Source: an uncultured Bacteroidota bacterium | Lineage (GTDB): Bacteria > Bacteroidota > Bacteroidia > Flavobacteriales > Flavobacteriaceae | Direction: 5' to 3' | Assembly (NCBI GenBank): GCA_902512755.1 | Contig: CABXKB010000013.1 | Coordinates: 1 to 37,181 of the forward strand | Length of the DNA: 37,181 nucleotides | In this document: in pieces, positions 10,419 to 37,181 of the stretch | Position numbering within the stretch: the stretch's first letter is position 1 | Layout: each line of letters begins with the position of its first letter | The notes under the pieces: generated by a model | The model's input: only the letters and a program-made list of their open reading frames with translations | Told to the model about the DNA's origin: nothing | The model's database searches: none | Program-made: the position numbers and the translations under genes

Positions 10419-11534
10419 TTAAATTTTAATTAGTGATGAAACATTTATATGATCTAAATCAAATACATCTGCAACTTGTTTATACACAACATTTCCTTGT
10501 ATTATGTTAAGACCTTTTCTCAAAGCCTCATTTTCTATACATGCAGTTTTCCAGCCTTTGTTTGCAAGTTCTAAAGCAAAATTTAATGTTGCATTTGTCA
10601 AAGCAGTAGTTGAAGTATTGGGAACTGCACCAGGCATGTTTGTAACTGCATAATGAATAATGCCTTGTTTGATCACAATAGGGTCATCATGTGTAGTTGG
10701 TTCGCTTGTTTCGAAACAGCCGCCTTGATCAATAGCAACATCCACCAAAACAGTACCAGGCATCATATTATCTAACATATTTTTAGTAATAAGTTTGGGA
10801 GCTTTAGATCCGGGTATTAATACTGTTCCTATTATTAAGTGAGATCTTTGAATTTCTTGATCAAGAGCAAAAGGGTTAGAATAAATTGGCGTTACATTAG
10901 AAGGCATTGTAATTTCTAAATAACGTAGGCGATCTAAATTAGTGTCAAAAATGGTGACATTTGCACCTAAACCGGCTGCCATTAGTGCGGCTTCAGTTCC
11001 TGCGACACCACCTCCAATAACCATTACATTGGCAGGTTTTACACCAGCAACTCCACCTAAGAGAATCCCAAAGCCTCCCTGGGGCTTTTCCAAATATTTT
11101 GCTCCTTCTTGAGTTGCCATCCTTCCGGCAACCTCAGACATTGGGATTAGTAAAGGTAATTTTCCATCCTCTTCAACAGTTTCATAAGCCAGGCAAATAG
11201 CTTTGGATTCAATCATTGCATTCGTTAATTTTTTGCTTGAGGCAAAATGAAAATATGTAAACAACAGTTGATTGGGCTTAATCAAAGAATATTCTTCTTC
11301 AATAGGCTCTTTTACCTTTATTATCATTTCAGCAAAATGATAAATATCTTCAATATTGTCATTAATAGTGCAGCCTGCATTTTGATAGGATTTATCACTA
11401 AAACCACTCAATAAACCAGCACCTTTTTGAATATGTAATTCATGACCTGCTTGTATTAGGGAAAAAGCACCCGCGGGGGTTACTCCTACACGGGCTTCTT
11501 GGGGCTTGATTTCCTTAGGAACTCCTATTATCAT
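10419..11534 (-). CDS. ald: alanine dehydrogenase
   Basis: 371 residues, the family length. It begins MIIGVPKEIKPQEARVGVTP, with R15 for substrate binding; K75 (KVKEP) and H96 (YFHFAS) are the catalytic and pyruvate-binding residues. The NAD-binding loop GGGVAGTEAA (174-183) and VDVAIDQGGCFETSEPT with D269 follow. The enzyme interconverts L-alanine and pyruvate plus ammonia using NAD in the cytoplasm. It leads a three-gene minus-strand operon with the DUF4442 and NMO-like genes. The tRNA-Arg gene and its terminator lie just upstream, so it must start from its own promoter within 11535-11601. Confidence 0.96.
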   Translation of the reverse strand: MIIGVPKEIKPQEARVGVTPAGAFSLIQAGHELHIQKGAGLLSGFSDKSYQNAGCTINDNIEDIYHFAEMIIKVKEPIEEEYSLIKPNQLLFTYFHFASSKKLTNAMIESKAICLAYETVEEDGKLPLLIPMSEVAGRMATQEGAKYLEKPQGGFGILLGGVAGVKPANVMVIGGGVAGTEAALMAAGLGANVTIFDTNLDRLRYLEITMPSNVTPIYSNPFALDQEIQRSHLIIGTVLIPGSKAPKLITKNMLDNMMPGTVLVDVAIDQGGCFETSEPTTHDDPIVIKQGIIHYAVTNMPGAVPNTSTTALTNATLNFALELANKGWKTACIENEALRKGLNIIQGNVVYKQVADVFDLDHINVSSLIKI

Positions 11535-18742: not shown

Positions 18743-20245
18743 TTAAAATTTTGATGTCAAAATAGCTAAATAAGTCTCAATTCCCTTTAAATAATTGCCA
18801 ACTCTAATATTTTCATTAGGACTATGTTGATTGTTATCTAGATTAACTGTAGGAACACCTATGGCGGGTACTCTCAATTCCGAAACAAAGGGTGAAATAG
18901 GAACAGAACCTCCACTAGTTCTTATTATAACAGGACTCTCGCTATAGTAATCCTCAATAATCTTAGTCAACCATTTTCCTTCTTTAGTTTGAGTGTCAGT
19001 TCTATATGCAGGATAAGCAATTTTCGAATTTATTTTAATAATTTTTGCATTGTTCAAACGCTCTTCCTTTGTAGGTTCATGATTCAACACTGTATAGCCT
19101 AAATTTTCAATGTGTAGTTTAACTCCTGCAATTAAAGCCAATGGATCACTTTCAACAACCAGGCGAATATCCATTTCAGCTGTAGCGGTTGCTGGAATAA
19201 TTGTTCGTGCTTCTTTGCCAACCCATCCGCTTCGCATCCCCCTAATATTCAAAGAGGGATATTGAATTGATTCTTGATAAGTCAACCCAACTTGATCTGT
19301 AGTTGAAATTTGAGTACGGGATTTTATAGAAGCATCCTCTGAAGGAACAGCCTCTAAAACTTTCTTGGTAAGTGGGTCTATAAAAACCCCATTATAAAAC
19401 TTAGGTACTACCACCCGACCTAAATCATCCTTCATCGAAGCTAAGACTTTAGACAACGCTAAAGCAGGGTTAGGAATATAGTTCCCATAATGACCACTAT
19501 GTTGGGCGGTTATTGGCCCATAAGTTGTCAAAGTCAAAGTAGCTATTCCTCTATTTCCAAAAACTAGAGTTGGGCGTCCTGAGCTATGCATGGGGCCGTC
19601 AAAGATTAAAAGTAACTCAGCAAGCAAATCTTCTTTATGTGTTTTTACCGATTCAGGAAGACCTGGAGAACTCTGTTCTTCTTCAAAATCGAGAATCAAT
19701 TTTAAGTTATATTCAGGACGCTTATTTTTACTATTTAAATAATCCAGAGCCGTCAAAAACATTGAAAAAGGTCCTTTATCATCAGAACTTGATCGAGCAA
19801 AGATTCTTAAATCATCAATGTTATCATCATTTAATACATCCCAAGAAATGATCTGAAAACCTGTTGCGTTTTTTTGCTTAATTACCGCTTTATAAGGATC
19901 TTCTTGATTCCATTTTGAACGATCAACTGCCTGTCCATCCAAATGCATATAAAAAGCTACAGTAGGAAGTTTATTGTTTATTGTAAGGTTAGCAATCATT
20001 AAAGGCAGTGAAGAAGTTTTTAATAATTTTACTTCAAAATCATGTATATAAAGTTGCTCTTCTACCCAACGAATATTGTCTTGTATTTCATTTCCATTAG
20101 ATGCATCATTAGCAAGAGCCAAAAAACTTTTAAAGCGTTCTAAGCTATGAATCCCTATCTCTCTTGCGCCTTTCTCATATTCTCTTTGAGCATTTACATT
20201 AATACTTAAAACAAATAAATAAAGTATCCAGTGTTTCAATTTCAT
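18743..20245 (-). CDS. secreted M20 family dipeptidase-like metallopeptidase
   Basis: 500 residues from the ATG at 20245, chosen because it directly begins a signal peptide (MKLKHWILYLFVLSINVNAQ) and has AAAGGAAAC just upstream. The frame is open to 20356, but that extra stretch is basic and unlike a secreted N-terminus. M20 zinc residues are visible: H101-L-D103 (YMHLDGQ), the D pair in RSSSDDKGP, E-E-E in LDFEEEQSSPGLP, and late histidines in DNNQHSPNENI. The dimerisation domain contains AQHSGHYGNYIPNPA. This matches larger M20 dipeptidases of the CNDP/PepV-like type acting outside the cytoplasm. It is divergent (118-base gap) from the first DUF5916 gene. Confidence 0.87.
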   Translation of the reverse strand: MKLKHWILYLFVLSINVNAQREYEKGAREIGIHSLERFKSFLALANDASNGNEIQDNIRWVEEQLYIHDFEVKLLKTSSLPLMIANLTINNKLPTVAFYMHLDGQAVDRSKWNQEDPYKAVIKQKNATGFQIISWDVLNDDNIDDLRIFARSSSDDKGPFSMFLTALDYLNSKNKRPEYNLKLILDFEEEQSSPGLPESVKTHKEDLLAELLLIFDGPMHSSGRPTLVFGNRGIATLTLTTYGPITAQHSGHYGNYIPNPALALSKVLASMKDDLGRVVVPKFYNGVFIDPLTKKVLEAVPSEDASIKSRTQISTTDQVGLTYQESIQYPSLNIRGMRSGWVGKEARTIIPATATAEMDIRLVVESDPLALIAGVKLHIENLGYTVLNHEPTKEERLNNAKIIKINSKIAYPAYRTDTQTKEGKWLTKIIEDYYSESPVIIRTSGGSVPISPFVSELRVPAIGVPTVNLDNNQHSPNENIRVGNYLKGIETYLAILTSKF

Positions 20246-20363
20246 GTTTCCTTTGTATTTATTCTTTAAATATAGCCGTTGAATCTTAACCAGCAATAAT
20301 TTAAGCTTACAAGTTTTATTTGTAAGTTCGTATTTTCCAGATATTTTAAAAAACAAAAAGCAT

Positions 20364-22571
20364 TTGAAAAACTATCTAATAGTAATAACTATATTTATAG
20401 GATGCTGCAGCATTGCGCAAAAAAATAACCCCAATCAAAATTTAAATTTCCAAATCACATTTTTAGAAAATAATCCAGTTATTGATGGCAATATACTTGG
20501 AGAACCATTGTGGAAAAAAGTCCCTGTGATTCAAAACCTTAAACAAATTAAACCAAACTATGGACTGCCTGCCTCTGAGAAAACATCAATTCGTGTTGCT
20601 TACACTAATAAAATATTATATGTTTCTGTAGTTTGTTATGATTCTGCTCCAGATCAAATTGTAATTTCAGACTCCCGTAGAGATGCAGATTTAAGTGATG
20701 AAGACAGCTTTCTTTTTATTTTGGATACTTATAATGATCAACAAAACGGTTTCTTATTCGGAACTAATGCAAGTGGAATGGAATACGATGCGCAAATTGA
20801 TAATGAAGGAGAAGGAAACTTTACCGCCAACAGACAACAAGGGGGAGTTGTAGGAGGCACTAATATAAATTGGGATGCATCTTGGGAAGTAAAAACAGAA
20901 AAAGGTGATTATGGATGGAGTGCAGAATTTGCAATTCCTTTGAGGTCTATTCGTTTTAATAGTGGTTCTAATAAAGTCTGGGGGATAAACTTTCAACGCA
21001 ATATTAGTAAAAGAAGTGAAACAGCTTATTGGGCTAATCTTCCTTTAGGTTTTGATATAAAACGCTTGTCTCTTGCGGGTAAAATGTCAGGGATCAATCT
21101 TAAATCTCCCAAAAATCTTAAAATTATTCCTTATGCCCTAACTCAAGTAGCTGGAAATATAACGTCGTCAAAAAATACATCTTCAAAAGCAGCTATTGGA
21201 GGAGATTTTAAATACAGTCTAACTCCTGGTTTGACTTTGGACCTTACCTATAATACAGATTTTGCTCAAGTAGAGGTTGACAATCAACAGGTGAACCTTG
21301 ATCGTTTTAATCTTTTTTTTCCTGAAAAGAGACCTTTTTTCCTTGAAAATGCAGGACAATTTAGTGTAGGCAGCCCTGGTGAAGTTGATTTATTTTTCAG
21401 TAGACGAATTGGTATTGGAGAAGGTGGGTCTTTGGTTCCTATAATTGGTGGTTCTCGTGTCTCTGGAAAGGTCGGACAAACTAATGTTGGCCTTCTAAGT
21501 ATGTTTACTGATGAAGTTGAAGGCCAGGGTGATATTGGTATTATAAAAAATAATTATTCAGTTGCTAGGGTAAACCATGACTTTGCTAAGAGCCGTTCTT
21601 CTCTTGGGGGTTTATTTGTAAATCGAAATGGCATTGGGATTTCTGATGATTACAATCATGTTTTTGCAATTGACGGTAAGCTTGGTTTAGGCAAAAAAGC
21701 TCAAATAACAGGCTATCTTTCTAAGAGTAATACTCCAGGAATTGAACTTAGTGACCATGCGCTAAATATTTTAGCTGTCTACAACTGGAACGGATGGAAT
21801 TTACGTGCAGGTTATACCGAAGTAGGTGAAGGATTTAATCCTGAAGTTGGATTTTTACTGCGCTCAGCCTTTAAAAAACATGAGTATCTTATTTTTAAAC
21901 AATGGCGTCCAAAGAATACAGGAAAATTCCTAGAAGTCCGTCCCCACATATCATATCGAGGGTATTGGAACTTTAACAATACCCAAGAAACAGGTTTTTT
22001 ACACGTGGATAATCACTGGGTATGGGAAAGTGGGTTTGAGATTCATACCGGAATTAATTTTACTAAAGAAACTGTAATTGACCCCTTCCCTATTTCACTT
22101 GTCAAAGTAGATCCTGGGATTTATGATCATCAAGAATTTCAATTTGTCTTATTTACAAATCCAAACAACAAAGCTTCCTTTAGAACACGAACAATTATTG
22201 GAGGTTATTTTGGAGGAAATCGTATTTCCAGCAACAATACAGTTAACTTTCGTTTAGGTGATAAGTTTAACACAGAAGCAAACTTAAATTACAATCGTTT
22301 AAATCTTCCAAATGGAAGTACTAATGTAATTATTACTGGCGCACGTCTGGCCTATTCATTTTCTCCAAGGATGTTTTTACAAAGTTTAATCCAATACAAT
22401 AATGTAAGTGAAATGACTTCTATAAATGCGCGCTTTGGATGGCTGCGAAACGCCAATACAGGACTTTTTGTAGTTGTTAATATTATTAAAGAAAATGATT
22501 TTATGAATCGAATTAACAATCAAAGTATTACGATTAAATACAGTTATCAATTTGACTTATTAGGAAATTAG
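20364..22571 (+). CDS. CBM9/DUF5916 outer-membrane protein 1
   Basis: 735 residues with a signal peptide (MKNYLIVITIFIGCCSIAQ). The only start codon that keeps the signal is TTG at 20364; no in-frame ATG lies upstream. The N-terminal CBM9-like domain (about 35-235) contains DGNILGEPLWKKVP and WSAEFAIPLRSIRF. The DUF5916 region follows with the signature TDFAQVEVDNQQVNLDRF and PEKRPFFLEN. The remainder is a series of amphipathic strands ending YSYQFDLLGN, consistent with an outer-membrane beta-barrel. No biochemical function is established for the family. It is convergent with the M19 dipeptidase gene (5 bases between stops) and divergent from the M20 gene. Confidence 0.85.
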   Translation: MKNYLIVITIFIGCCSIAQKNNPNQNLNFQITFLENNPVIDGNILGEPLWKKVPVIQNLKQIKPNYGLPASEKTSIRVAYTNKILYVSVVCYDSAPDQIVISDSRRDADLSDEDSFLFILDTYNDQQNGFLFGTNASGMEYDAQIDNEGEGNFTANRQQGGVVGGTNINWDASWEVKTEKGDYGWSAEFAIPLRSIRFNSGSNKVWGINFQRNISKRSETAYWANLPLGFDIKRLSLAGKMSGINLKSPKNLKIIPYALTQVAGNITSSKNTSSKAAIGGDFKYSLTPGLTLDLTYNTDFAQVEVDNQQVNLDRFNLFFPEKRPFFLENAGQFSVGSPGEVDLFFSRRIGIGEGGSLVPIIGGSRVSGKVGQTNVGLLSMFTDEVEGQGDIGIIKNNYSVARVNHDFAKSRSSLGGLFVNRNGIGISDDYNHVFAIDGKLGLGKKAQITGYLSKSNTPGIELSDHALNILAVYNWNGWNLRAGYTEVGEGFNPEVGFLLRSAFKKHEYLIFKQWRPKNTGKFLEVRPHISYRGYWNFNNTQETGFLHVDNHWVWESGFEIHTGINFTKETVIDPFPISLVKVDPGIYDHQEFQFVLFTNPNNKASFRTRTIIGGYFGGNRISSNNTVNFRLGDKFNTEANLNYNRLNLPNGSTNVIITGARLAYSFSPRMFLQSLIQYNNVSEMTSINARFGWLRNANTGLFVVVNIIKENDFMNRINNQSITIKYSYQFDLLGN

Positions 22572-22576
22572 GACTG

Positions 22577-23644
22577 TCAAGGAAGATTTTTTAGTAGAAA
22601 AGTGATTCCATTTTGAGATAAAATCTTTTTTATATCCTGTTCTGAATATCCACGTTTACTGAGAATATTATCTAACTTTTGTAAATCAGAAATGGTATCT
22701 AAATCACTCGGACATTGTTCTTTACCAAATCCCCCATCCAAATCCGATCCAATCATTACATGCTCAGCATTTCCAGCAAGTTGGCAAATATAGTCTATGT
22801 GATCAACTATAGTTTCTATTACAAGACCGCTAGTTTTAGGTCTTGTAATGCCTCGTTTCCAATTTGGTAACATCATCCAAGCATCAAAAGCCATACCAAT
22901 AACCGCTCCTCGATCTAATAATGCTTTTATTTGTTGGTCTTCAAATTGTCGTTCATTTGGAACCCAATGCCTACAATTACTATGACTTGCCCATATTGGT
23001 CCATCATAAACATCTAAAGTTTCCCAAAAACTCTTATCACAAAGGTGAGTAGCGTCTAAGATTAAATTTAGCTCTTGTATCTTTTTTAGTAAAATTTTTC
23101 CATTTTCTCCTATTCCCCCATTAGAATCGGTTCCAAACGCATAAGTGCCTGGGCCGTAATGAGCAGGTCCTATAGCACGTAAGCCCTTTTGATGCATTAT
23201 TTCCAAATGCTTCATGGATATTATGGAATCTGCTCCTTCCAAGCTTAAAACATATCCCAGGGCAGTATTTAATAGATTCTCTTTCCAAGCATTAAGATGT
23301 TCTTTTAACTGTTTAGCCGTTTTAATTTGAATAAGCTCCTTTTGAGATTCCATTTCCTTATACCAAGCAAGTTGACCCTGAGTTTGAGCCCACGCTTGTT
23401 CTGGTGAATTCCAACCAGGTAGTGAATTTCCTGGTTTTACATATCTTGCAATAAGAGTAGCAACGCATAAACCAATGTTACCATGCCGCAAAGCTGGAAA
23501 AGAAACGGTTCCTCCTCCCCTGTCAGGCAAGTCCTGCATGCCATTCTCGTTTTTACGAATTTCATGCACAGGTAGACGAAAATCACGGTTCCATTCTAAA
23601 GCATTCATGGATAGGTCTAAATGAGCATCGAATATAAATTTCAT
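22577..23644 (-). CDS. M19 (renal/membrane-type) dipeptidase, cytoplasmic
   Basis: 355 residues of an M19 TIM-barrel dipeptidase. All metal ligands are visible: H8 and D10 (DAHLDL), E136 (LSLEGADS), H200 (LDATHL), H221 (ASHSN) and D301 (IGSDLDGG). There is no signal peptide, so it acts in the cytoplasm. Bacterial M19 enzymes favour dipeptides whose second residue is a D-amino acid. Its ATG overlaps the stop of the PLP enzyme gene (ATGA, 23644-23641), so it is the last gene of the four-gene operon. It would supply free D-amino acids to the preceding enzyme. This link is inference from context; the family call is firm. Confidence 0.9.
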   Translation of the reverse strand: MKFIFDAHLDLSMNALEWNRDFRLPVHEIRKNENGMQDLPDRGGGTVSFPALRHGNIGLCVATLIARYVKPGNSLPGWNSPEQAWAQTQGQLAWYKEMESQKELIQIKTAKQLKEHLNAWKENLLNTALGYVLSLEGADSIISMKHLEIMHQKGLRAIGPAHYGPGTYAFGTDSNGGIGENGKILLKKIQELNLILDATHLCDKSFWETLDVYDGPIWASHSNCRHWVPNERQFEDQQIKALLDRGAVIGMAFDAWMMLPNWKRGITRPKTSGLVIETIVDHIDYICQLAGNAEHVMIGSDLDGGFGKEQCPSDLDTISDLQKLDNILSKRGYSEQDIKKILSQNGITFLLKNLP

Positions 23645-24759
23645 GATTTATATATTCCTTGTTGATAATCTCGTGCTTCAATTTCCCAAAAAACACCTAA
23701 ATCTCCTCTATTAACCGTATAAGCTTTACTGTATTTTGCAACGGTGGGACAAATGTGGTATGGGATTGCATAAAATAAATCACCCACTTTATAATTATCA
23801 GCATCTTTATGTTCAACTATAAGATGTTCCTCACTTTGCCCTCTATGTAAAGCTCCTTCTAGACCTATAATTTCAACTCGTGGCAGTGGAGTTTCAGATG
23901 CTACAGCCTTGTGGCCTAGATCAAAGCAGAGAATATTGGTGTTTGGCTTGCTTATCAAACGTATTGCCAAAATAGCTGCATTAATAAAGGGAGATTCGTT
24001 CCAGATTTTTTGATAACCTAAATCCCACAAAAGCGTTGTTCCTGGACTTAAGCGGTTTGTTTTAACCATAGAGTGGGGATAAAAGCTTGGAGAACCACCT
24101 GTTATTTGTTCTGGCACTTCTCCACCAAGCTTTTGAATTTCAGCAATCAAATCCTTAACAGATTGAAAATCATTATTACATTGCTCTATTCGTTTTTGTA
24201 ACTCTATCGTCCTAATATGACCATCATATACATGAATGCCTTTAAGGTTGATATTGTTATTGTTATGTAGGCTCATGTAAAGTTTTGCTGCATGTTTTGG
24301 AATTATTCCTGTTCTGTTCATTCCGTTGTTAACATCCATCCATAAATTTATTTTCTGATTCTGATTTTCAGCTAAATTTGAGAATAGTGTTAAGGAGTAC
24401 GAATTATCAACCAGGGTAGAAAAAATTATTTCTGGGTTTTGCTTTTGAGCGTCAAGAAACTGAATCATTTTTTCTCTAGTAGGCTGCATAGCAAGTAAAA
24501 TGTGTTTCACTTTACAAGAAATCAACATTTTTAATTCTCCAAGGGTAGCACACTTAAATTCTTTAATGCCATAGCTCATTTGCAAGTTTACTATAGCTGG
24601 CATTTTATAGGTTTTAACGTGTGGTATTAATCGATTAACATCTCCAGATATAGCAATCATAGATTCGATATTCTGTTTTACTCGATTTGGATAAATCAAT
24701 AAGGCTGGAGTGGTTAACTTTGCCTGATCCTTTACTCGATACCAATTTTCTTTTGACAT
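23641..24759 (-). CDS. D-threonine aldolase/D-serine dehydratase-fold PLP enzyme
   Basis: 372 residues of the fold-type III (alanine racemase N-terminal) group. The PLP lysine is K49 in PHVKTYK, matching the RPHVKTHK signature. ITGGSPSFYP is the phosphate-binding loop, LSPGTTLLWD a further family block, and a C-terminal GDLFYAIPYHICPTVAKY supplies metal ligands H335 and C337. In chicken D-serine dehydratase the zinc is held by such a His-x-Cys pair, whereas D-threonine aldolase of Achromobacter xylosoxidans uses His-x-Asp. The residue pattern therefore leans to D-serine dehydratase or a relative. It is third gene in a tight operon (3 bases after RidA). Confidence 0.88.
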   Translation of the reverse strand: MSKENWYRVKDQAKLTTPALLIYPNRVKQNIESMIAISGDVNRLIPHVKTYKMPAIVNLQMSYGIKEFKCATLGELKMLISCKVKHILLAMQPTREKMIQFLDAQKQNPEIIFSTLVDNSYSLTLFSNLAENQNQKINLWMDVNNGMNRTGIIPKHAAKLYMSLHNNNNINLKGIHVYDGHIRTIELQKRIEQCNNDFQSVKDLIAEIQKLGGEVPEQITGGSPSFYPHSMVKTNRLSPGTTLLWDLGYQKIWNESPFINAAILAIRLISKPNTNILCFDLGHKAVASETPLPRVEIIGLEGALHRGQSEEHLIVEHKDADNYKVGDLFYAIPYHICPTVAKYSKAYTVNRGDLGVFWEIEARDYQQGIYKS

Positions 24760-24762
24760 ATA

Positions 24763-25230
24763 CTATTTTTCTAATAAAAAAGAAGCCTCTATCTCTACTG
24801 GAATGTTTTGAGGCAGGTGCATCCCTACTGCGCTTCGAACACCTATACCATTTTCTTCACCAAAAACTTCAGCGAATAGCTCACTAAATCCATTTATTAC
24901 ATAAGGGTGGTTTTCAAATTCTGGAGTAGCATTTACCATGCCAAATACTTTAATAACCCTTTTAATTCTTAATTCTTCGGGAGCGTGATTAACAATGGTA
25001 GATAACATAGTTAACCCTACTTGTCTTGCAGCAGCTTTACCTTCTTCTTTGTCTAAGAGTGAGCCCACTTTTCCATATATCAAACTTCCATCTTGAAGAA
25101 CAGGTCCTTGCCCAGAAATATAGAGCTGGTTCTCAATTACTAAAATAGGGCGATATACACCTGCTGGTTTGGGTGCAGGAGGCAATTCTAGCCCCATGAA
25201 TTCTAATCGATCTTTTAGTTGTTTACTCAT
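24763..25230 (-). CDS. RidA/YjgF family enamine/imine deaminase
   Basis: 155 residues, slightly longer than the 125-130 of classic RidA because of an N-terminal extension with LPPAPKPAGVYRP, known in a common RidA-like subgroup. QLYISGQGPV and the active-site block with R132 (GVRSAVG) and E147 (PVEIEASF) are present. RidA hydrolyses 2-aminoacrylate and similar enamines released by PLP-dependent serine/threonine dehydratases. It lies between a GntT-type permease (1 base) and a D-serine dehydratase/D-threonine aldolase-fold enzyme (3 bases), which makes clean-up of that enzyme's intermediate its likely job. Confidence 0.92.
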   Translation of the reverse strand: MSKQLKDRLEFMGLELPPAPKPAGVYRPILVIENQLYISGQGPVLQDGSLIYGKVGSLLDKEEGKAAARQVGLTMLSTIVNHAPEELRIKRVIKVFGMVNATPEFENHPYVINGFSELFAEVFGEENGIGVRSAVGMHLPQNIPVEIEASFLLEK

Positions 25231-25231
25231 T

Positions 25232-26548
25232 TCAGATAAATTGATTTAAAAATAAAACACCTAGCAAACCGGAAATGCCAATACAAGTTTCCATAACTGT
25301 CCATGTAGAGAGAGTTTCTTTCACGCTTAAATTAAAATATTCTTTAAATAACCAAAAGCCACTGTCATTTACATGAGAAAGCATTAAGCTTCCAGAACCT
25401 ATGGCTAAAACCATAAGCTCTGGACTCACGTCTGTTGTTTGTATTAAGGGCAATACAATGCCAGCTGTAGTAAGCCCTGCAACTGTAGCTGAACCAACTG
25501 AAAAGCGAATTAGCGTCGCTATGATCCACCCTATCAATAAGGGAGATATAGAAGTGATTTGTAGTAATCCCCCGATATACTGACTCACGCCACTGTCAAT
25601 TAAGATCTGCTTTAGGGCGCCTGCGCCAGATATGATTAGTAAAACCATAGTAATTCCTGAAACTGCAGTAGCATAAATTTTCATAATTGCATCCATAGAG
25701 TTTCCCCGGGAAATGCCTAAGGAATAGGTTCCAATTAAAAGTGTTAACAATAAAGCTATAGCTGGATTTCCAATAAAATTAAAAAGGCCATATAAAATGC
25801 TCTCCTCATTAAGAAAACTAGAAATTATAGTAGCAAAACCAATCAATAAAACTGGCAATAAGGCAGTCAATAAACTATTAGTCAAGCTCGGAAGTTCTGA
25901 GATAGTAAAAGTTTTTGAAGCCATAAATTCTTTTAAAGGTTTCGCTTCTACTTTTGGGAGAAACCGAGTAAGTACTGGGCCTGAAATCAAAATGGCAGGT
26001 ATTGCTAGTATAATACCATATATAAGTGTCTTACCTAGGTCTGCATTAAACATAATTGATAAAGCCGAAGGTGCTGGATGAGGAGGTAAAAATCCGTGAG
26101 TAACTGATAAAGCGGCAAGCATAGGAAGCCCAACTCCTATCAGAGAAAGTCTTGTTGCGTTTGCAACGGTAAAGACTAATGGCACTAAAATCACAAATCC
26201 TACTGAGTAAAACATTGTAATTCCAACAATAAAACCTGTTAGCATTACTGCTGCTCTAGTGTTTTTAACCCCGAAGATTCGAATTAGTCCATTGGTGATT
26301 TGTTGAGCAGCTCCACTTTCTGCGACAAGTTTACCCAACATAGCACCCAGGCCTAGAATAATCACTAAAAAACCTAAGGTGTTCCCAATCCCCTTTTCAA
26401 TTGAGTTAACTACAGTATCCAAAGGCATGCCTTGACCGATTCCAATTCCAATAGCAACTATAATAAAAGCAATGAATGCATTAAGGCGACAGATTACAAT
26501 TAAAAAAAATAAAAAAAGAATTCCTAGAGATACTACTAATAAAGGCAT
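25232..26548 (-). CDS. GntP family permease, GntT-like
   Basis: 438 residues from the ATG at 26548 (MPLLVVSLGILFLF). This start matches the MPL-type start and length of E. coli GntT; the GTG at 26563 would add five residues and falls in the predicted leader. About 12-14 hydrophobic helices are present, with family blocks QGMPLDTVV, LGLGAMLGKLVAESGAAQ, HGFLPPHPAPSA, GSATVAGLTTAG and HVNDSGFWLFKEYFNL. GntT-type carriers import gluconate with protons; the same family includes the D-serine importer DsdX. Sequence blocks are nearer GntT, while the downstream D-amino-acid enzymes suggest another substrate. It is first gene of the operon. Confidence 0.92.
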   Translation of the reverse strand: MPLLVVSLGILFLFFLIVICRLNAFIAFIIVAIGIGIGQGMPLDTVVNSIEKGIGNTLGFLVIILGLGAMLGKLVAESGAAQQITNGLIRIFGVKNTRAAVMLTGFIVGITMFYSVGFVILVPLVFTVANATRLSLIGVGLPMLAALSVTHGFLPPHPAPSALSIMFNADLGKTLIYGIILAIPAILISGPVLTRFLPKVEAKPLKEFMASKTFTISELPSLTNSLLTALLPVLLIGFATIISSFLNEESILYGLFNFIGNPAIALLLTLLIGTYSLGISRGNSMDAIMKIYATAVSGITMVLLIISGAGALKQILIDSGVSQYIGGLLQITSISPLLIGWIIATLIRFSVGSATVAGLTTAGIVLPLIQTTDVSPELMVLAIGSGSLMLSHVNDSGFWLFKEYFNLSVKETLSTWTVMETCIGISGLLGVLFLNQFI

Positions 26549-26599: not shown

Positions 26600-26621
26600 A
26601 AACCCTCCATAGGGAGGGTTT
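26600..26621 (-). terminator. strong intrinsic terminator of the secreted orphan gene
   Basis: AAACCCTCC (26600-26608) pairs perfectly with GGAGGGTTT (26613-26621) around a 4-base loop, followed on the minus strand by a T-run. It starts 19 bases after the stop of the 228-residue gene and insulates it from the GntT operon. Confidence 0.85.
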
Positions 26622-26639: not shown

Positions 26640-27326
26640 TTACCAACTTTTAACATTAACTAAAGTCATTGATCCCAAGAAAATAGAATATTTATTGGTT
26701 AATTTTTGGAATTTCACAAATGCTTCTTGCTGGGTCTTTGTTTTAGGACCCCAACCTAATGCAGAACCATAATCTTCATGAGTCGTATAAACATAATGAG
26801 ATTCTCCATTACTACTTATTCCATGAGTAAATTGTCCTAAAGATAAATAACCCATTTGTGGAAAAGCTTTTATCAGATCAGTGAATGCTGCAGCGAAGCT
26901 AGGTGAGTCTTCTACTCGCCATTTCCAAACTTGTACTACTGGAAGTCCAGCCTTAGCTAAATTCATTCTCATAAGTGTTGAACCTCCTGAAACAGATACA
27001 ACTTTACCGAATTTTAAAATATTAGAATTAAATGATGAATAAACACTCCCTCCTCTAATTTTACGCAATTCAGCTAGACCTTCTACAGATCCTGTAAAGG
27101 TTAAGTAATGCGTAGCTTTAACTTCTTCGGATTTAAAATACACTCGATTTAATGATATATTTACACCTTCTGGCTTTTCAATATTACCATAGAATCCATC
27201 AAGTAAGTCTAATACATAGGCTGAACTTCCTGATTCTACTTGAATACCTACTTGCTCAAAAGAAATATTTTGCGCAAACGCAAGGTTTGAAGCTGCGAAT
27301 AGCAGCAAAAACATAATTTTTTTCAT
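26640..27326 (-). CDS. secreted protein of unknown function, apparent internal duplication (228 aa)
   Basis: 228 residues with a clear signal peptide (MKKIMFLLLFAASNLAFAQ). No family was recognised. The mature part looks like two similar units of about 65-75 residues (roughly 25-90 and 130-205). Each has a short acidic serine-rich lead, an amphipathic helix and a strand containing (T/S)HYLTF- or SHYVYT-type sequence followed by another helix. A tandem ferredoxin-like (dimeric alpha-beta barrel, NIPSNAP/EthD-like) fold would fit this spacing, but that is a guess. The gene stands alone, with its own strong terminator, divergent (117 bases) from the second DUF5916 gene. The complete signal and terminator argue for a well-expressed real gene. 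Confidence 0.8.
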   Translation of the reverse strand: MKKIMFLLLFAASNLAFAQNISFEQVGIQVESGSSAYVLDLLDGFYGNIEKPEGVNISLNRVYFKSEEVKATHYLTFTGSVEGLAELRKIRGGSVYSSFNSNILKFGKVVSVSGGSTLMRMNLAKAGLPVVQVWKWRVEDSPSFAAAFTDLIKAFPQMGYLSLGQFTHGISSNGESHYVYTTHEDYGSALGWGPKTKTQQEAFVKFQKLTNKYSIFLGSMTLVNVKSW

Positions 27327-30879: not shown

Positions 30880-32484
30880 TTAATAAATTGAATAGTATTC
30901 AACAGTACCTTCCCAATCTGGATCTGCAGCTCCGACCCAAGTTTTAGCTATGGAATCATATGAAATAGCGTGAACCCTTCCAAAGCGAGCTTTTTGGTCA
31001 ATCATCTTTATAGGATACAGATTTGGATCAATTTCCGCATTAAGGTCTTTTACTTCCTTGTGGTCTTCTATCCAAAGAGTGTCTTCAAAAGGATAAATTC
31101 TGGGTAAAAATAAAGATTTGTTTAAATCGTTTTTCTGTGAAAGATATCGATGGGCAACTTGGGTTATAGCAGTTACAATTCTATTACCTCCAGCTGCTCC
31201 TATAGCTAATTGTAATTTTTTGTTTTTCATAAATAAAGTTGGGGAAATAAAAGAATTCGAACGTTCGCCAGGTTTGTATTCTCCCAAATAGCCTCCAAGA
31301 CTAACCGCATAAAGAAATCCTAAGTCTTTTGAAGCAACTTTAGACCCCATATTGGGCCCAATTGTCTGAGTTAAGCTAACCACATTGCCTTGATCATCAG
31401 CTGCGGTTAAATGAGTAGTATGGCCAATAGAAGCAGTCCAATATTCAGTATTATTTTTTAACTTATCTACTACTAAATTTAGTTTGTCATTTTTAATTTT
31501 ATACGCCCATGTATTAGCTTGATTATAATTCAGCATTTTAGCCAATGAATCTTGATTCTGTTGATAATTTCGGTAGGAATAAGCCAGAGTTGTTGAAGCA
31601 TCAAACTGCTTTGACCATAATTCTTCAGAATTTGACTTAGAAAGATGATCCATGATCTGAAGAATTTGAATAGTAATAGCTCCATATGAAGGTAAGTTTA
31701 GAGCATAGACTTGAGTGCCTTCAAATTTACCCTGTAAAACATCTGAATCTAGTGCATTATAATTTTTTAAATCCTCTAATGTGAGGATTCCTCCATTTGA
31801 CTGAATATCATCAACCATTTTTTTGGCAATTTCACCTTCATAAAAACCTGCCTTACCATTTGAAGAAATCAGTTTTAAAGTATTTGCCAATGTTTTTTGA
31901 ACAACTAAATCTCCCGACTGAAATGAATCACCATTTTTATTAAGAAAATGTGCCCTAGTGCCTTCAAAATTTTCAAAGATTGTTTTAGCACTCTGTTGTC
32001 TCATCGATTCTAAGGGTAAAATTCGATACCCCTCCTCAGCATGCTTAATGGCAGGGGCCATTACCTTTTCTAATGAAAGACTTCCATGATTTTTATGAAG
32101 TTTAAGCAAACCTGCAACTACACCTGGAATTCCAATTGTCTTATAACCAAAAGAGTGTTTTTCCTTAGTTGTTTTATAATTCATCGGAACTTGAGTTGAA
32201 GCATCAACCCCACCTATTTTTCCATCAGAATCATGATAAATGGCTTGGAGTCGGCCGCCTATACCACTCATGCTTGGTTCAACTACAGCAAGAGTAAATG
32301 CTGCCGCTACTGCTGCATCAAAAGCATTTCCGTTTAGTTCAAACATTTTTTTGCCTGACAAAGAGGCTAAAGGATGTGCTGAAGAAATTGCGTTGTTATT
32401 TATAATTTTTTCACTTCCTTGATTACACGAAAAAGAAATTAAAAGACAAAATACACTTCCTATAAATCTGAATATATGTTTCAT
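30880..32484 (-). CDS. gamma-glutamyltransferase-fold lipoprotein, divergent substrate pocket
   Basis: 534 residues, a little shorter than typical GGT (about 560-580). Lipoprotein signal with C20 (ISFSCNQ). The Ntn-hydrolase core is intact: the autocleavage and nucleophile site is T356 in GHTTHLTAADDQGN, and the glycine loop is G432-G433 in AAGGNRIV. GNAFDAAVAAAF and GIPGVVAG blocks are also present. However the position of E. coli R114 (DFREMAP) is DASTQVP, giving S96. The NNEMDDF segment with D433 is replaced by LYAVSLGG, and the SS pair before MSPT is SF (411-412). These residues hold the gamma-glutamyl group, so a different acyl or peptide substrate is likely. It follows SusD after a terminator. 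Confidence 0.86.
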   Translation of the reverse strand: MKHIFRFIGSVFCLLISFSCNQGSEKIINNNAISSAHPLASLSGKKMFELNGNAFDAAVAAAFTLAVVEPSMSGIGGRLQAIYHDSDGKIGGVDASTQVPMNYKTTKEKHSFGYKTIGIPGVVAGLLKLHKNHGSLSLEKVMAPAIKHAEEGYRILPLESMRQQSAKTIFENFEGTRAHFLNKNGDSFQSGDLVVQKTLANTLKLISSNGKAGFYEGEIAKKMVDDIQSNGGILTLEDLKNYNALDSDVLQGKFEGTQVYALNLPSYGAITIQILQIMDHLSKSNSEELWSKQFDASTTLAYSYRNYQQNQDSLAKMLNYNQANTWAYKIKNDKLNLVVDKLKNNTEYWTASIGHTTHLTAADDQGNVVSLTQTIGPNMGSKVASKDLGFLYAVSLGGYLGEYKPGERSNSFISPTLFMKNKKLQLAIGAAGGNRIVTAITQVAHRYLSQKNDLNKSLFLPRIYPFEDTLWIEDHKEVKDLNAEIDPNLYPIKMIDQKARFGRVHAISYDSIAKTWVGAADPDWEGTVEYYSIY

Positions 32485-32572: not shown

Positions 32573-33889
32573 TTATTTAGTATCCCAACTATTTCTAGGA
32601 GAGAAAAGTGTTTCACTTCCTGAGAAATTCGAATTGAAAAGAATCTCATCACCAGAATAATTCCATCTAACAGGTAGTTGAGAACCTGAGGTAGGAGTTA
32701 AAGCTGGGAAATCATTTCTTCTCAAATCATTGAAAACCTCGGGTTGAATAAATAACCCAATATATTTTTGAGTTAAAATATGATCTTCTAAATCTAGACT
32801 TGCGCCTCCAGGGTTTACAGCATTTTGTGCAACATAAGCATCATATTGAGCATCCGTTAAACCTGCATCTTCAAATGAACCTTTGATGCCATTCAAATAT
32901 GCTGTTTCCATATCTGAAGAACTTCCATTAGTTCTTTTCAAACACTCAGCAATGATAAATTGAATTTCTCTATAAGAAATAAAATTTTGATCATAATCAG
33001 CTGTCATATAAGGATGACTAGTAATAAAGGTTTGATCCCAAACAGCTAATCTGTCTGTATCATTTAAACCTTCCATTATAGCCCTCATAGTTGGATGAAA
33101 TTCAATATCTCCGGTTCTACCATCATTGAATCTCCACCAACCACCTTGTTGAGTTGTTCCATACTTATAGGACATGTTGTCTGCTCTTGATGCAAAAGAT
33201 GATCTAGCAGAAGAAAGTGCACTTGCATAATCTCCTAAATGTAGATGACCTCTAGCTTTAAGTGCATTTGCAGCCTTAATCCATGCCGAAACGTTTCCGC
33301 CATAAATTACATCATCTCCACCTACGCTAAATCCACCATCACTTCCATTTAATAATCCAATTCCTGAATCTAAAAGTGAAAATACTTCAGCATAAATACC
33401 GGCTTGACCATCAACTGTAGGATTAATTTCATCAATTCCTAACGCTGCAGATGAATTAGGGATATCACCCCACCAGTCTGTAGCTGCCATCATTGCGCCT
33501 GCCTTAATGATTTGACCTATTCCAGCATAATGATTATAACCATCAGCCGATGCATCTGCTATCATAGAATTCACTTCAATTAAGATATCTTCATAATAAA
33601 TATCCCATACAGTGTTAAATCTAACAGGTGTAAGACCGGAATAATCATTAAAAGATGACCATTGTCTTGCAACACCTTCTGTTTGCTGAGAAAACATTGA
33701 GTTAACCCTAGAAGTCTGACCTCCGTACCAATCCATCATTCTTACTCCAATACTAGGCAAAACAGCATTAAGAGTAACAACACTAGGGTTGTTAGGGTCA
33801 CGATTAATATCATCAGCTATAAAGCTTTCACATGATGCAAAAACCAAGATACAAATGATTGTTTTTATAAAATATTCGATTTTTTTCAT
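32573..33889 (-). CDS. SusD/RagB family nutrient-binding outer-membrane lipoprotein
   Basis: 438 residues with a lipoprotein signal (C20 in VFASCES). The start INRDPNNPSVVTLNAVLPSI and blocks WDIYYEDILIEVNSM, WWGDIPNS, AWIKAANALKARGHLHLGDY, SYREIQFIIAECLKR and QKYIGLFIQPEVFNDLRR match the SusD-like (PF12771-type) subgroup with TPR-like helices. SusD proteins cap the SusC barrel on the cell surface and bind incoming glycans or peptides. It lies 4 bases after susC on the same strand. The nearby GGT-like lipoprotein and peptidases hint that the ligand is peptide-like rather than a glycan; that is inference. Confidence 0.94.
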   Translation of the reverse strand: MKKIEYFIKTIICILVFASCESFIADDINRDPNNPSVVTLNAVLPSIGVRMMDWYGGQTSRVNSMFSQQTEGVARQWSSFNDYSGLTPVRFNTVWDIYYEDILIEVNSMIADASADGYNHYAGIGQIIKAGAMMAATDWWGDIPNSSAALGIDEINPTVDGQAGIYAEVFSLLDSGIGLLNGSDGGFSVGGDDVIYGGNVSAWIKAANALKARGHLHLGDYASALSSARSSFASRADNMSYKYGTTQQGGWWRFNDGRTGDIEFHPTMRAIMEGLNDTDRLAVWDQTFITSHPYMTADYDQNFISYREIQFIIAECLKRTNGSSSDMETAYLNGIKGSFEDAGLTDAQYDAYVAQNAVNPGGASLDLEDHILTQKYIGLFIQPEVFNDLRRNDFPALTPTSGSQLPVRWNYSGDEILFNSNFSGSETLFSPRNSWDTK

Positions 33890-33893
33890 GATT

Positions 33894-36800
33894 TTATAAA
33901 TTTAAATTTAATTTAAACATAACAGAACGGGTTGAAGGCATGTTGAAATAGTCAACACCTTGTCCATTCCCTACACCTGTTAGTGATGTTTCAGGATCTA
34001 CACCATTATAGTCTGTTGAATACCATAAGTTTCTACCCACAATACTAATATTACCTCTATCGATAAAATCAATTCCCATTTTAGCAAGAGGTATGTTGTA
34101 TCCTAAACTTACTTCTCTAAGTCTAAGCCATCCACCGTCTTGAACGAATTGCTCCCAAACAGAACCAAAACCTCCAACTGAAGATTGGTAGTAATACTGG
34201 TCTCTTACAACTGGAATATCATTCGGTGAACCATCTGCTTTAACACCAACTATTGGTGTAGGAGATTCTGTTCTAGTATCAGCAGTTAATTGAGATCTTC
34301 CGAAGAAAGAAAGAGCCCAAGCAACACCATTAAGCAAGTCTCCACCTTCTCTCCAATCTAAAAGGAAACCTAGGTTAAAGTCCTTAATCTTTATAGTGTT
34401 ATTCCATCCTAAAATAAAATCAGGGTTTGGATTACCAATAGATCTTTGAACTGGATCAACTGCCTGGAATCCATACTCATTAGAAGAGGGATCACTGTTT
34501 ACCACAACGTCACCTTCCGGAATATTTAAACCATCATCATTTGCTCCACCAGAACCTGTTCTTAAATAAGTTCCACCAACTACTGCACCATATTGGTTAC
34601 CAGCAATTAAATATGACCCTGCACTACTAAATCCTGCAAGGAAAAGCTTATCTAAACCAGGGGCTAATTCCTCAACTATATTTTCACTACTTGTGAAGTT
34701 AACTTGAGAATTCCAAGAGAAATCGTCAGATTGAATGATTCCTAAATTTAAAGTAGCCTCTATACCTCTACCACTCATACTACCAGAGTTTAACCAGACA
34801 TTGTTATATCCTGTAGAAGCTGGTAAAGAAGCATTTAGAATTGCATCTGTCATTTTTCTTTCATAGTATGCGACATCTAATCCTATCCTGTTATTAAAGA
34901 ATCTAAGATCAACCCCAAATTCAATTTCTTCAGTAAGCTCAGACTTTAATTCTTTATTTCCTAAAATACTATCAATTTCAAATCCTGTAACACCCTGTAT
35001 TGGCCATGTGATAGAGTCTCCCCATCCATCACCAACAGATGTAATACCATATCCAGAAGATGTTAAGTATGAAAATGGTGGAGGTCCACCAACTTGAGCC
35101 CATGACGCTCTTACCTTAGCAAAAGATAAAACATCACTTGCAGGAAGTAATTCACTTAAAAGAATTGAAAGCGAAGCAGCTGGATAAACAAATGAATAGT
35201 CTGATCCTTTAAATTCTGTTCCGGGAACTCCTAGACGTGAGTCATAATCCTGACGAGCTGCAAGTGTTAAATAGAATGTATCATCCCAATCAGCTTCTAC
35301 TTGGGCAACAAGTCCCATCTGAGTGTTTTTTAAGACGCCTTCACCTGCCGAAATATTAGAGGCATTATCTAAATTAACAAAGCCTTGAAATGCTAAATTA
35401 GTTCCTACTGCAGATAAAGATGTTCTTTGGAAAGAAAATGCGTTTGCACTAACTAAATAGTTCAAACTTATTTGATCCGTTAAATCATCTCCTCCAGTTA
35501 TGTTAAGAATAGCATCAGACTGGAAAGTAGTATATTCAGTTCTATCAACTCTACCAGTAGAAGATGTTCTAGATCCACGTTCATAGTTTTGTTTACGACT
35601 ATCACTTGTGAAATCTGCTCCAACATTAAGCGTGGCATTAAACCATTTATCTAAGTTATACTCTGCAGAAAAACTTCCATAAACACGATTTACAGTCTCA
35701 TTTCTTAGTACGTTGTTAACGATCCAATATGGGTTGTCATATCCACCACCACCACGGTAGTTTCTCTGATTACCATTTGCAAATTGATAAGCTGAACGCT
35801 CATCGACAGCATCTTCAGGACTAAATCCATTGGCATTATCAAAAGTAATAGGTGTTCTATATAAACCCAATAGTAATCCAGAAGTATTAGAACCTTGTTG
35901 GATTCTTTGATAATCTGAACGAATATAATTGAATGTTGAAGAAAACTTCAATTTGTCTGTAGCTTGAAGTGTTGAAGCTAAACTAAAAGTTTTTCTTCCA
36001 TATTCTTCGTTAGGAACAATACCTTCATTAGTTAAAAATGAAGTTGAGAAAAAGTAAGTTGCCTTTTCGCTACCACCAGACACACTAACATTATTCAATG
36101 ACTGCATGGCATCTCTAAAGAAACCTCTATAATTGTCTTGGTAATTGTTAGCCATTTGACCATTTCCAGTTCCCCTAGGAACTAAGAAACCATTTTTATC
36201 CCATTTGTAATTTCCATCTGCATCAAAATCCCTAGCAGCAGGTGCATCCGGATGATTTCTATCAGTTGAGAATTCAAGATCAGTATATCTAGGGCCATAT
36301 GAGCTAGATTCACCTGTACCAGGTGATCTCCAATATCTTGTTCTATTACTTCTACTTCTGTTTCTACCTTGAGCAAATTCTGTTTGCATATTAAATGTAG
36401 TTGAAAGCCAATCTACACCAGTAGAGTGAGTATAAGAAACTTTCATGTCTCCTTCAGCTCCTTTTTTTGTTGTTATTACAACAACACCGGCGGCTCCAGC
36501 AGTACCATATAAAGCAGTTGCAGCAGAACCCTTAATAATGCTGATGTTTTCAATATCATCATTATTTAAGTCCATCAATCGATTCGATGTTGCAGTACCA
36601 GCAGTAGATGAACCTGAATTTAGAGTTTCATTGTTTGTTCTTACACCGTCAATTACGATAAGTGGTTGATTATTACCAATCATCGAAGTTACACCTCGAA
36701 TTAAGATTCTTGAACCACCACCGGCAGAACCAGCAGATCTAGTAATCTGAACACCAGCAGCCTTACCAACAAGTGCATCTAATGCACTGTTTGAACCGGA

Positions 36801-37181
36801 ATTGGCGATGTCTTCACTTCCTACTGTTTGAATTGAGTATCCAAGAGCTTTAGATTCTCTTTTAATACCCAATGAAGTAACAACTACTTCCTCTAACTCA
36901 TTTCCTAGATCTAAAGAAATAGAATAATTGTCAGCATTTCCAACAGTAAGGTTGGCATCATTATAACCAACGAAACTTATAACAAGTACTTCACCGGTAG
37001 AAGCTTCAATAGAGAAGTTACCGTCAAAGTCTGTTGTAACACCTCTGTTGGTGTCTTGAACTATTACAGTTGCTCCAGGAAGAGGTATACCAGCGTCATC
37101 TTGGACTGAACCTGATATAGTTCTTTGCTGTGCAAAGGTTATAGTTGAAAAGATAGCCAACAAAAATGATAATAAAATTTT
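33894..37181 (-). CDS. SusC/RagA family TonB-linked outer-membrane transporter (5' end just outside window)
   Basis: About 1095 codons are present. The frame stays open to the right edge with KILLSFLLAIFSTITFAQQ, so the signal peptide is cut and the start lies a few codons beyond 37181; the TTG at 37163 is not the real start. Domain order: carboxypeptidase-regulatory-like domain (ISGSVQDDAGIPLPGATV and on), the EEVVVTSLGIKRESKALGYS stretch that precedes the plug, plug (VQITRSAGSAGGGSRILIRG, NIIKGSAATALYG), then the barrel ending STRSVMFKLNLNL. SusC channels import oligomers handed over by SusD using TonB energy. It heads a susCD pair with a strong terminator behind it. Confidence 0.95.
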   Translation of the reverse strand, partial: KILLSFLLAIFSTITFAQQRTISGSVQDDAGIPLPGATVIVQDTNRGVTTDFDGNFSIEASTGEVLVISFVGYNDANLTVGNADNYSISLDLGNELEEVVVTSLGIKRESKALGYSIQTVGSEDIANSGSNSALDALVGKAAGVQITRSAGSAGGGSRILIRGVTSMIGNNQPLIVIDGVRTNNETLNSGSSTAGTATSNRLMDLNNDDIENISIIKGSAATALYGTAGAAGVVVITTKKGAEGDMKVSYTHSTGVDWLSTTFNMQTEFAQGRNRSRSNRTRYWRSPGTGESSSYGPRYTDLEFSTDRNHPDAPAARDFDADGNYKWDKNGFLVPRGTGNGQMANNYQDNYRGFFRDAMQSLNNVSVSGGSEKATYFFSTSFLTNEGIVPNEEYGRKTFSLASTLQATDKLKFSSTFNYIRSDYQRIQQGSNTSGLLLGLYRTPITFDNANGFSPEDAVDERSAYQFANGNQRNYRGGGGYDNPYWIVNNVLRNETVNRVYGSFSAEYNLDKWFNATLNVGADFTSDSRKQNYERGSRTSSTGRVDRTEYTTFQSDAILNITGGDDLTDQISLNYLVSANAFSFQRTSLSAVGTNLAFQGFVNLDNASNISAGEGVLKNTQMGLVAQVEADWDDTFYLTLAARQDYDSRLGVPGTEFKGSDYSFVYPAASLSILLSELLPASDVLSFAKVRASWAQVGGPPPFSYLTSSGYGITSVGDGWGDSITWPIQGVTGFEIDSILGNKELKSELTEEIEFGVDLRFFNNRIGLDVAYYERKMTDAILNASLPASTGYNNVWLNSGSMSGRGIEATLNLGIIQSDDFSWNSQVNFTSSENIVEELAPGLDKLFLAGFSSAGSYLIAGNQYGAVVGGTYLRTGSGGANDDGLNIPEGDVVVNSDPSSNEYGFQAVDPVQRSIGNPNPDFILGWNNTIKIKDFNLGFLLDWREGGDLLNGVAWALSFFGRSQLTADTRTESPTPIVGVKADGSPNDIPVVRDQYYYQSSVGGFGSVWEQFVQDGGWLRLREVSLGYNIPLAKMGIDFIDRGNISIVGRNLWYSTDYNGVDPETSLTGVGNGQGVDYFNMPSTRSVMFKLNLNL

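Follow-up and report, generated by a model that had tools for sequence, protein, structure and literature searches.

The catabolism of C1-oxidised chitin has been described for the ong cluster of Pseudoalteromonas prydzensis (PMC9537276, PMC12017989). The experimentally worked-out pathway comprises a TBDR, a GH20, a symporter, a deacetylase, a PLP deaminase, RidA and a KDG kinase, and in some genera a KDG-6-P aldolase is also present (PMC9537276). The PLP enzyme OngC deaminates D-Ser and D-Thr as well, and reports of this catabolic route cover Gammaproteobacteria and a single betaproteobacterium (PMC9537276). Here, we analysed a window of 37,181 nucleotides from an uncultured member of the Flavobacteriaceae (Bacteroidota). 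It contains a four-gene operon whose predicted functions follow the same order of roles as the ong pathway, with an importer, an amide hydrolase, a fold-III PLP deaminase carrying an H-x-C site and a Rid protein. The features of the locus are as follows.

26600..26621, minus strand: intrinsic terminator behind the upstream gene, with a 9-pair stem and a U-tract, which sets the operon apart from that gene
25232..26548, minus strand: gene 1, GntP-family permease nearest to GntT (ATG at 26548; Pfam and NCBIfam matches)
24763..25230, minus strand: gene 2, Rid-family protein of the PF14588 type (Pfam YjgF_endoribonc; a homologue lies near the M19 gene in 98 of 120 loci)
23641..24759, minus strand: gene 3, PLP enzyme of the DSD1/D-threonine-aldolase fold, predicted dehydratase (Pfam, conserved residues)
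22577..23644, minus strand: gene 4, M19 dipeptidase homologue, candidate deacetylase or amidase (Pfam, conserved residues, M19 structures)

The first-pass annotation had described a tightly packed operon isolated by an upstream terminator, and both features were borne out. The first three genes are separated by gaps of 1 and 3 bases (permease stop 25232, Rid start 25230; Rid end 24763, PLP start 24759), and the PLP and M19 genes overlap by 4 bases (23641-23644). All four proteins passed the Pfam cut-offs (GntP_permease, YjgF_endoribonc, Ala_racemase_N plus D-ser_dehydrat, and Peptidase_M19, respectively). The terminator had a folding energy of -18.2 kcal/mol over the 43 nt folded (z = -5.5), and none of 200 shuffled sequences was equally stable. 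The near-consensus promoter claimed in the same annotation was not recovered, since neither the sigma-70 scan nor the Bacteroidota-type scan gave anything above chance. The sigma-70 scan listed no minus-strand site between the upstream terminator and the permease start codon, and found 42 sites in the whole region versus 38.6 expected. The scan for TTTG/TANNTTTG, the Bacteroidota-type promoter consensus, scored no better than shuffled sequence.

Conservation of the gene order, which the first-pass annotation had proposed as a check, was assessed in 120 loci picked by their M19 gene. The complete order was kept in 75 of them, so the adverse case of a gene order that is not conserved does not apply. 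Both the M19 and PLP genes were present in 29 of 395 Bacteroidota genomes and were adjacent in 24 of these 29 (association p about 1e-26, uncorrected for relatedness). In this phylum sample, nine genomes had the PLP gene without M19 and twelve had M19 without the PLP gene, and nine fetched genomes had the PLP gene at a site away from the M19 gene. Such exceptions would suit housekeeping salvage genes that are neighbours by chance and share no pathway. However, the shared order, the adjacency and the association make that explanation, already disfavoured, extremely improbable. Our results showed that the gene order is far above chance and that the four genes are a genuine functional unit. PLP-only genomes were considered as places where OngB might stand in for M19, but among the loci listed for them (locus L211 in part), neither OngB nor M19 was found beside the PLP gene. 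No description of an M19-PLP-Rid unit and no function assigned to it appeared among the open-access papers listed, most of which were assessed by title and abstract opening.

The M19 protein scored 165.8 bits against Pfam Peptidase_M19 (cut-off 26) and matched M19 structures in the PDB. No signal peptide was seen on inspection by eye, and H8, D10, E136, H200, H221, R232 and D301, positions to which we assign presumed metal or catalytic roles, were invariant in all nine aligned proteins. The Pfam domain and these positions are shared with the M19 membrane (renal) dipeptidases (PDB 3fdg, 3ly0, 3neh). In contrast to these dipeptidases, the window protein belongs to a Bacteroidota subfamily with its own motifs, H-Y-G-P-G and W-A-S-H-x-N-C-R, and is encoded together with a PLP deaminase and a gluconate-type permease in one operon. 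To our knowledge, M19 enzymes are known solely as dipeptidases and beta-lactam hydrolases.

The PLP enzyme has the invariant residues K49, H335 and C337. Its top PDB sequence matches were D-threonine aldolase and the 3-hydroxy-D-aspartate aldolase BhcC (7dib, 4v15, 6qkb; 61-64 bits), which carry H-V-D or H-C-D, whereas the window enzyme carries H-I-C. The H-x-C site of dehydratases was found in 95 of 95 PLP homologues. Because this site replaces the H-x-D metal site of D-threonine aldolases, the enzyme is predicted to be a dehydratase, not an aldolase. Of the earlier proposal that it cleaves or dehydrates its substrate, dehydration is thus the predicted part and aldolase cleavage was dropped. 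An identity as D-threonine aldolase was rejected on the same residues, and an identity as BhcC was rejected by model score (NF045642, 76 bits versus a cut-off of 690). The fold III, the PLP lysine, the H-x-C site and the Pfam pair Ala_racemase_N and D-ser_dehydrat are common to the window enzyme and the DSD1-type D-serine dehydratase (PDB 3anu), but the overall similarity was low (50 bits, phmmer). The lysine and H-x-C are likewise shared with OngC, but the two enzymes are just 25% identical across 234 aligned positions; the PLP tree was rooted on OngC, so kinship with OngC is not a result of that tree. A DSD1-like gene from Vibrio campbellii was not retained for comparison, since a reading of the ORFs on its replicon placed it outside any ong cluster.

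The other components also differ from their ong counterparts. The window Rid protein passed YjgF_endoribonc but fell short of Ribonuc_L-PSP (26.0 versus a cut-off of 27.3) and did not match OngD convincingly (E 0.015), being of a different subfamily from the OngD-type RidA of the ong cluster. The importer is the SSS symporter OngIT in ong and a GntP permease in the window; the hydrolase is the D-aminoacylase-like OngB in ong and an M19 protein here. No OngB match was found in the 120 loci (E 1e-5), where M19 stands instead. The regulator is RpiR in ong and DeoR in g2, a genus of the same family as the window, with otherwise no regulator adjacent. Unlike the ong cluster, the window copy has no kinase, aldolase or GH20 gene in the operon. 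KDG kinase and GH20 genes were also absent beside it, and no recurrent sugar genes were found beside the window operon and its close relatives.

The permease scored 516 bits against Pfam GntP_permease and passed NCBIfam TIGR00791 (GntP, gluconate type) with 532 bits (cut-off 293). GntT (NF011560) was the top-scoring equivalog model with 512 bits, under its cut-off of 744, and the D-serine transporter DsdX (NF007395) gave 266 bits, under its cut-off of 618. Gluconate models outscored DsdX for the permeases of the window, of a second genus of the same family (g2) and of Parabacteroides. By these scores, the window permease is a GntP-family member closest to gluconate carriers, without reaching the GntT or DsdX cut-off. 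These scores bear on the scavenging of D-Ser and D-Thr, in which a D-amino acid or L,D-dipeptide would be imported, M19 would cut off the C-terminal D-residue, the PLP enzyme would dehydrate it and Rid would clear the aminoacrylate. The M19 and DSD1-like families fit such dipeptide breakdown, the GntP family includes DsdX, and OngC accepts both amino acids. The M19-PLP pair is strongly linked, also at loci without a nearby sugar gene, and a Deinococcus ficus M19 (32% identical) lies beside ABC-transporter genes, a D-aminoacylase-related amidohydrolase and serine hydrolases. However, the permease is nearer to GntT than to DsdX, and we know of no GntP carrier described as a dipeptide importer.

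The operon of g2 also bears on the substrate. In 5 of 9 g2 loci the row reads SusC, SusD, GntT, Rid, a PfkB-family KDG-kinase-like gene, a KDPG-aldolase-like gene, PLP and M19, with DeoR and GH20 beyond; DeoR and a GH20 hexosaminidase adjoined the operon in all 9 loci. The gene families were verified on single members, and the kinase and aldolase passed Pfam but fell below the NCBIfam equivalog cut-offs. These SusC/SusD, kinase-like, aldolase-like and GH20 genes add further ong-like roles, although the in-operon kinase and aldolase were found in this one genus only (one event). Both would be without a role in D-Ser or D-Thr breakdown. Together with the permease scores, the g2 genes argue against the earlier view of D-serine/D-threonine dipeptides as the source, which we regard as possible but rather unlikely. 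The g2 PLP genes form a separate clade from that of the window, and the g2 permease and Rid also group apart. The same M19 subfamily is paired with very different genes in other lineages (a class-III aminotransferase, a 3HCDH-type dehydrogenase and a ceramidase-like amidase). This would agree with lineage-specific N-acylated D-3-hydroxy-amino acids, an amino sugar acid in g2 and another compound in the window clade, such as a D-3-hydroxyaspartate or galactosaminate derivative, with the PLP enzyme and permease swapped. However, the M19 proteins of the window and g2 are about 60% identical and belong to the same clade in the M19 phylogeny, which suggests one kind of M19 substrate, and we consider such divergence quite unlikely.

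In the window's own genome, KdgK-like and Eda genes lie side by side, in what appears by eye to be a uronate-type cluster. KDPG/KHG aldolase homologues were present in the own genome and in all 40 of the other carriers sampled, versus 23 of 30 non-carriers, and GH18 homologues in 9 of 9 M19 carriers of g2 versus 4 of 10 non-carriers; in both comparisons genome size is a confounder and the non-carriers were chosen non-randomly. KdgK/Eda genes near M19 in loci L119 and L142 were not counted as support; L119 adjoins alginate-lyase-like genes (by eye). Genome-wide mutual exclusion of M19 and OngB relatives was not supported, as 16 of 40 carriers had an OngB relative, as did 8 of 30 non-carriers (p 0.31; counted at E 1e-30, with most listed matches spanning part of the query). 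None was found in the 9 g2 carrier genomes at this threshold. Of 395 sampled genomes, one encoded an AA10 LPMO, and the 41 carriers sampled, among them the own genome (55% complete), had none. An LPMO of their own feeding the pathway was rejected for these carriers, and GlcNAc1A would therefore need scavenging.

In conclusion, the operon probably serves to take up a gluconate-like acid, hydrolyse an amide bond and release the amino group. The generic chemistry proposed earlier, with amide hydrolysis, PLP-dependent deamination and Rid, is supported. We tentatively propose, at slightly below an even chance, that the operon acts on an N-acylated D-3-hydroxy-amino acid. Under this proposal the best candidate is a 2-amino-2-deoxy sugar acid, for example N-acetyl-D-glucosaminate (GlcNAc1A) or one of its near relatives. 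The sugar acid (GlcNAc1A/GlcN1A) is suggested because of the gluconate-type permease and the KDG-kinase-like, KDPG-aldolase-like and GH20 genes of g2. Evidence to the contrary comes from the sampled carriers, in which no AA10 LPMO was found, from the window copy, which has no sugar genes at its sides, and from its PLP gene, which belongs to a different clade. The GntT-like permease would take up the gluconate-like acid, and the cytoplasmic M19 enzyme would deacylate the D-configured amino group, taking the role of the deacetylase OngB in an ong-like route. The free D-3-hydroxy-amino acid would then be dehydrated and deaminated by the PLP enzyme, glucosaminate giving 2-keto-3-deoxygluconate (KDG), and the Rid protein would clear the enamine or imine. 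The route would be completed by a KDG kinase and a KDPG aldolase, whose genes belong to the operon in one genus and lie at another site in the window's genome.

Whichever reading holds, M19-PLP-Rid is a widespread module. It is possible, though rather doubtful, that Bacteroidota have their own, largely non-homologous GlcNAc1A pathway, with M19 as the sugar-acid N-deacetylase, a gluconate-type importer and no LPMOs, the oxidised ends coming from others. If so, the oxidised-chitin route would also be present in Bacteroidota, rebuilt by convergent assembly, and cross-feeding on LPMO products would be suggested. The label 'membrane dipeptidase' would then hide a new carbohydrate de-N-acetylase, an unsuspected sugar-acid deacetylase.

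The four genes lie compactly on one strand of the window, and Pfam searches upheld the families that the first-pass annotation had given them:

26548-25232, minus strand, permease (Pfam family)
25230-24763, minus strand, Rid protein (Pfam family)
24759-23641, minus strand, PLP enzyme (Pfam family)
23644-22577, minus strand, M19 dipeptidase homologue (Pfam family)

In gene order they are spaced by a 1-base gap, a 3-base gap and a 4-base overlap. The strong terminator described directly upstream was confirmed, and the near-consensus promoter was not, as promoter scans gave nothing exceeding chance. At the 3' side, a convergent gene (20364-22571) ends 5 bases short of the operon's end. The window is on contig 13 of a 1.2 Mb assembly estimated to be 55% complete. 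A 228-aa protein (26640-27326) has no Pfam match, and its homologues are found close to the same operon at three other loci (L076, L078 and L083). By eye, the genes outside the operon include an alanine dehydrogenase-like gene (10419-11534) and an M20 peptidase-like gene (18743-20356), as well as gamma-glutamyltransferase-like (30880-32484) and SusD/SusC-like (32573-37163) genes.

In a sample of 395 Bacteroidota genomes, the M19 subfamily (E 1e-60) was found in 41 carriers and a window-like PLP enzyme (E 1e-40) in 38 genomes. Comparison of the lists by hand gave 29 genomes with both, 12 with M19 only and 9 with the PLP enzyme only (Fisher p ~1e-26, relatedness ignored). According to the coordinates, the two genes adjoin on the same strand in 24 of the 29, are separated by one gene in 2 (G224, G340) and are located elsewhere in 3 (G365, G415, G549). 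We also fetched 120 loci, 40 from order and phylum draws (including a distant M19, L042); the remaining 80, the best of 574 confirmed, came from named genomes selected on their M19. The first-pass annotation had proposed a search for the four-gene order across Bacteroidota; the complete order GntT-Rid-PLP-M19 was conserved at 75 of the 120 loci (15/40 drawn and 60/80 named, contig-end-cut loci counted). It was present in 16/41 carriers of the phylum sample, with the window counted and the locus of G423 left out. Nine loci have GntT-Rid-M19 without an adjoining PLP gene, which is elsewhere in all nine genomes, and 12 of the 120 have M19 without the other three genes. The operon is present without GntT in Hymenobacter and with an inserted DUF4833 gene in Parabacteroides (in P. 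distasonis between permease and Rid, L155:7964-8485). Two verrucomicrobial assemblies carry M19 relatives, one alone (L128) and one with Rid and PLP genes (L146). The closest named M19 relatives are from Flavobacteriaceae and Bacteroidetes assemblies (71-78% identity).

The M19 subfamily also occurs with varying partners in other Bacteroidota families (L060, L062, L064, L066 and L068; also L166, for which the gene concerned is that of the PLP enzyme, judged by eye). An OngD-like Rid protein is combined there, in assortments that differ between loci, with genes for a class-III aminotransferase, a dehydrogenase of 3HCDH type and an amidase resembling ceramidase, and we regard this as a second, different M19 module. 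In two further families (L069-L073, L216-L218), Rid and then a symporter gene (SSF family, as verified for L069) come after M19, so that the pair has a further kind of transporter here. At most of these loci M19 is preceded by a TonB-receptor-like gene, judged by eye, and by a gene resembling DUF4249, whose score on L072 (26.6 bits) falls slightly short of the Pfam cut-off. A penicillin-acylase-like gene, judged by eye, is near the operon at 13 loci (e.g. L086, L088, L089, L095); a similar-looking one is near a lone PLP gene at L204 and L205, a pattern that would fit loss or gain of the other operon genes at these loci.

The top structure matches of the PLP enzyme were D-threonine aldolase, BhcC and D-serine dehydratase. 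We aligned the window protein with two OngC proteins and with the 92 PLP proteins at the 120 loci whose ORFs measured 340-430 aa. In this alignment K49, which presumably binds PLP, and H335-x-C337, presumably the metal-binding pair, were invariant (95/95). The metal-site motif is H-A-C in D-serine dehydratase (3anu) and H-P-C in D-serine deaminase (3gwq), whereas it is H-V-D in two D-threonine aldolases and H-C-D in BhcC. We are therefore fairly confident in predicting from sequence a dehydration or deamination rather than aldol cleavage. In M19, H8, D10, E136, H200, H221, R232 and D301, which we equate with the residues that bind metal and act in catalysis in renal dipeptidase, were kept in 9/9 sequences, and no signal peptide was seen by inspection.

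The first-pass annotation proposed that the operon scavenges D-amino acids. D-serine or D-threonine as the specific source is not favoured by the permease. Its score was 512 bits for the GntT model (cut-off 744) and 266 bits for DsdX (cut-off 618), reaching neither cut-off; the ranking was the same in Parabacteroides (461 versus 228 bits) and in g2, a genus of the window's family (394 versus 226 bits). D-glucosaminate, of 2R configuration, belongs to the gluconates as well as to the D-3-hydroxy-amino acids and would therefore suit a carrier of gluconate type that is paired with D-amino-acid enzymes. Sugar genes in g2 point the same way. At 5/9 g2 loci, KDG-kinase-like and KDPG-aldolase-like genes (Pfam cut-offs passed, NCBIfam cut-offs missed) lie between Rid and PLP, with SusD and SusC genes 5' of GntT (verified on L041 and L050). 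We know of no route from D-serine or D-threonine through KDG and KDPG, which are on the route from D-glucosaminate. At 9/9 g2 loci the operon is followed by genes for a regulator of DeoR type and a hexosaminidase of family GH20 (families verified on L036). GH18 homologues were found in 9/9 g2 carriers versus 4/10 g2 non-carriers examined (p 0.011; carriers' genomes are mostly larger). We judge scavenging of D-serine or D-threonine rather unlikely.

The gene roles of g2 follow the layout of ong in Pseudoalteromonas. According to PMC9537276, ong is a pathway for oxidised chitin ends, in which OngB deacetylates N-acetyl-D-glucosaminate, OngC deaminates D-glucosaminate to KDG (and acts on D-Ser and D-Thr), KdgK phosphorylates KDG, and OngD (RidA) is essential with an unknown role; in Vibrio, Klebsiella and Serratia the clusters further contain a gene for a putative KDG-6-P aldolase. 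PMC12017989 describes OngB as a deacetylase resembling D-aminoacylases. The string 'bacteroid' does not occur in the main texts of these two papers, and the literature searched for N-acetyl-D-glucosaminate with Flavobacterium gave one paper, judged by its listing a strain survey. Near M19 at L061:13011-16907 there are a DGOK-type kinase, a KDPG-aldolase-family gene and a PQQ-dependent dehydrogenase; a kinase of DgoK type and an aldolase are likewise found in an ong-type cluster on a Klebsiella plasmid. Compared with this cluster and the ong-type cluster of Pseudoalteromonas shioyasakiensis, the Bacteroidota operon has another importer and another hydrolase, its Rid protein is not convincingly similar and its PLP enzyme is distant, and it is not a member of this cluster type. 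M19 enzymes cut amides of C-terminal D-residues, which makes M19 a sensible candidate for removing the acetyl group from N-acetyl-D-glucosaminate.

Several results weigh against an amino-sugar acid. The presence of kinase and aldolase within the operon counts as a single genus-level event. In the PLP tree, g2 genes are in a 30-tip clade (support 0.56) and the window's in an 83-tip clade (support 0.80), both including stand-alone copies; g2 permeases and Rid proteins also branch apart, but g2 M19 shares the window's clade (94/121 tips, support 0.94). Thus M19 was retained and the genes beside it were replaced. This speaks for a fixed partnership of M19 with a deaminase, but it weakens transfer of the substrate. 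A KDPG aldolase homologue, set as a refuting test, was found in 40/40 carriers and the window's genome, but also in 23/30 non-carriers, so this is weak support. The KdgK/Eda pair of the window's genome lies, by eye, in a uronate-type-looking cluster. AA10 LPMO was found in 1/395 genomes and 0/41 carriers (the window's genome being 55% complete). OngB relatives (E 1e-30) were absent from the 9 g2 carriers and present in 16/40 carriers overall and 8/30 non-carriers, so M19 and OngB relatives are not mutually exclusive.

In conclusion, we are highly confident that the M19-PLP-Rid operon is a real conserved catabolic module, uncharacterised in function in the literature searched. Its substrate is, at somewhat under even chances, an amino-sugar acid, and the Bacteroidota operon may work like the ong pathway.
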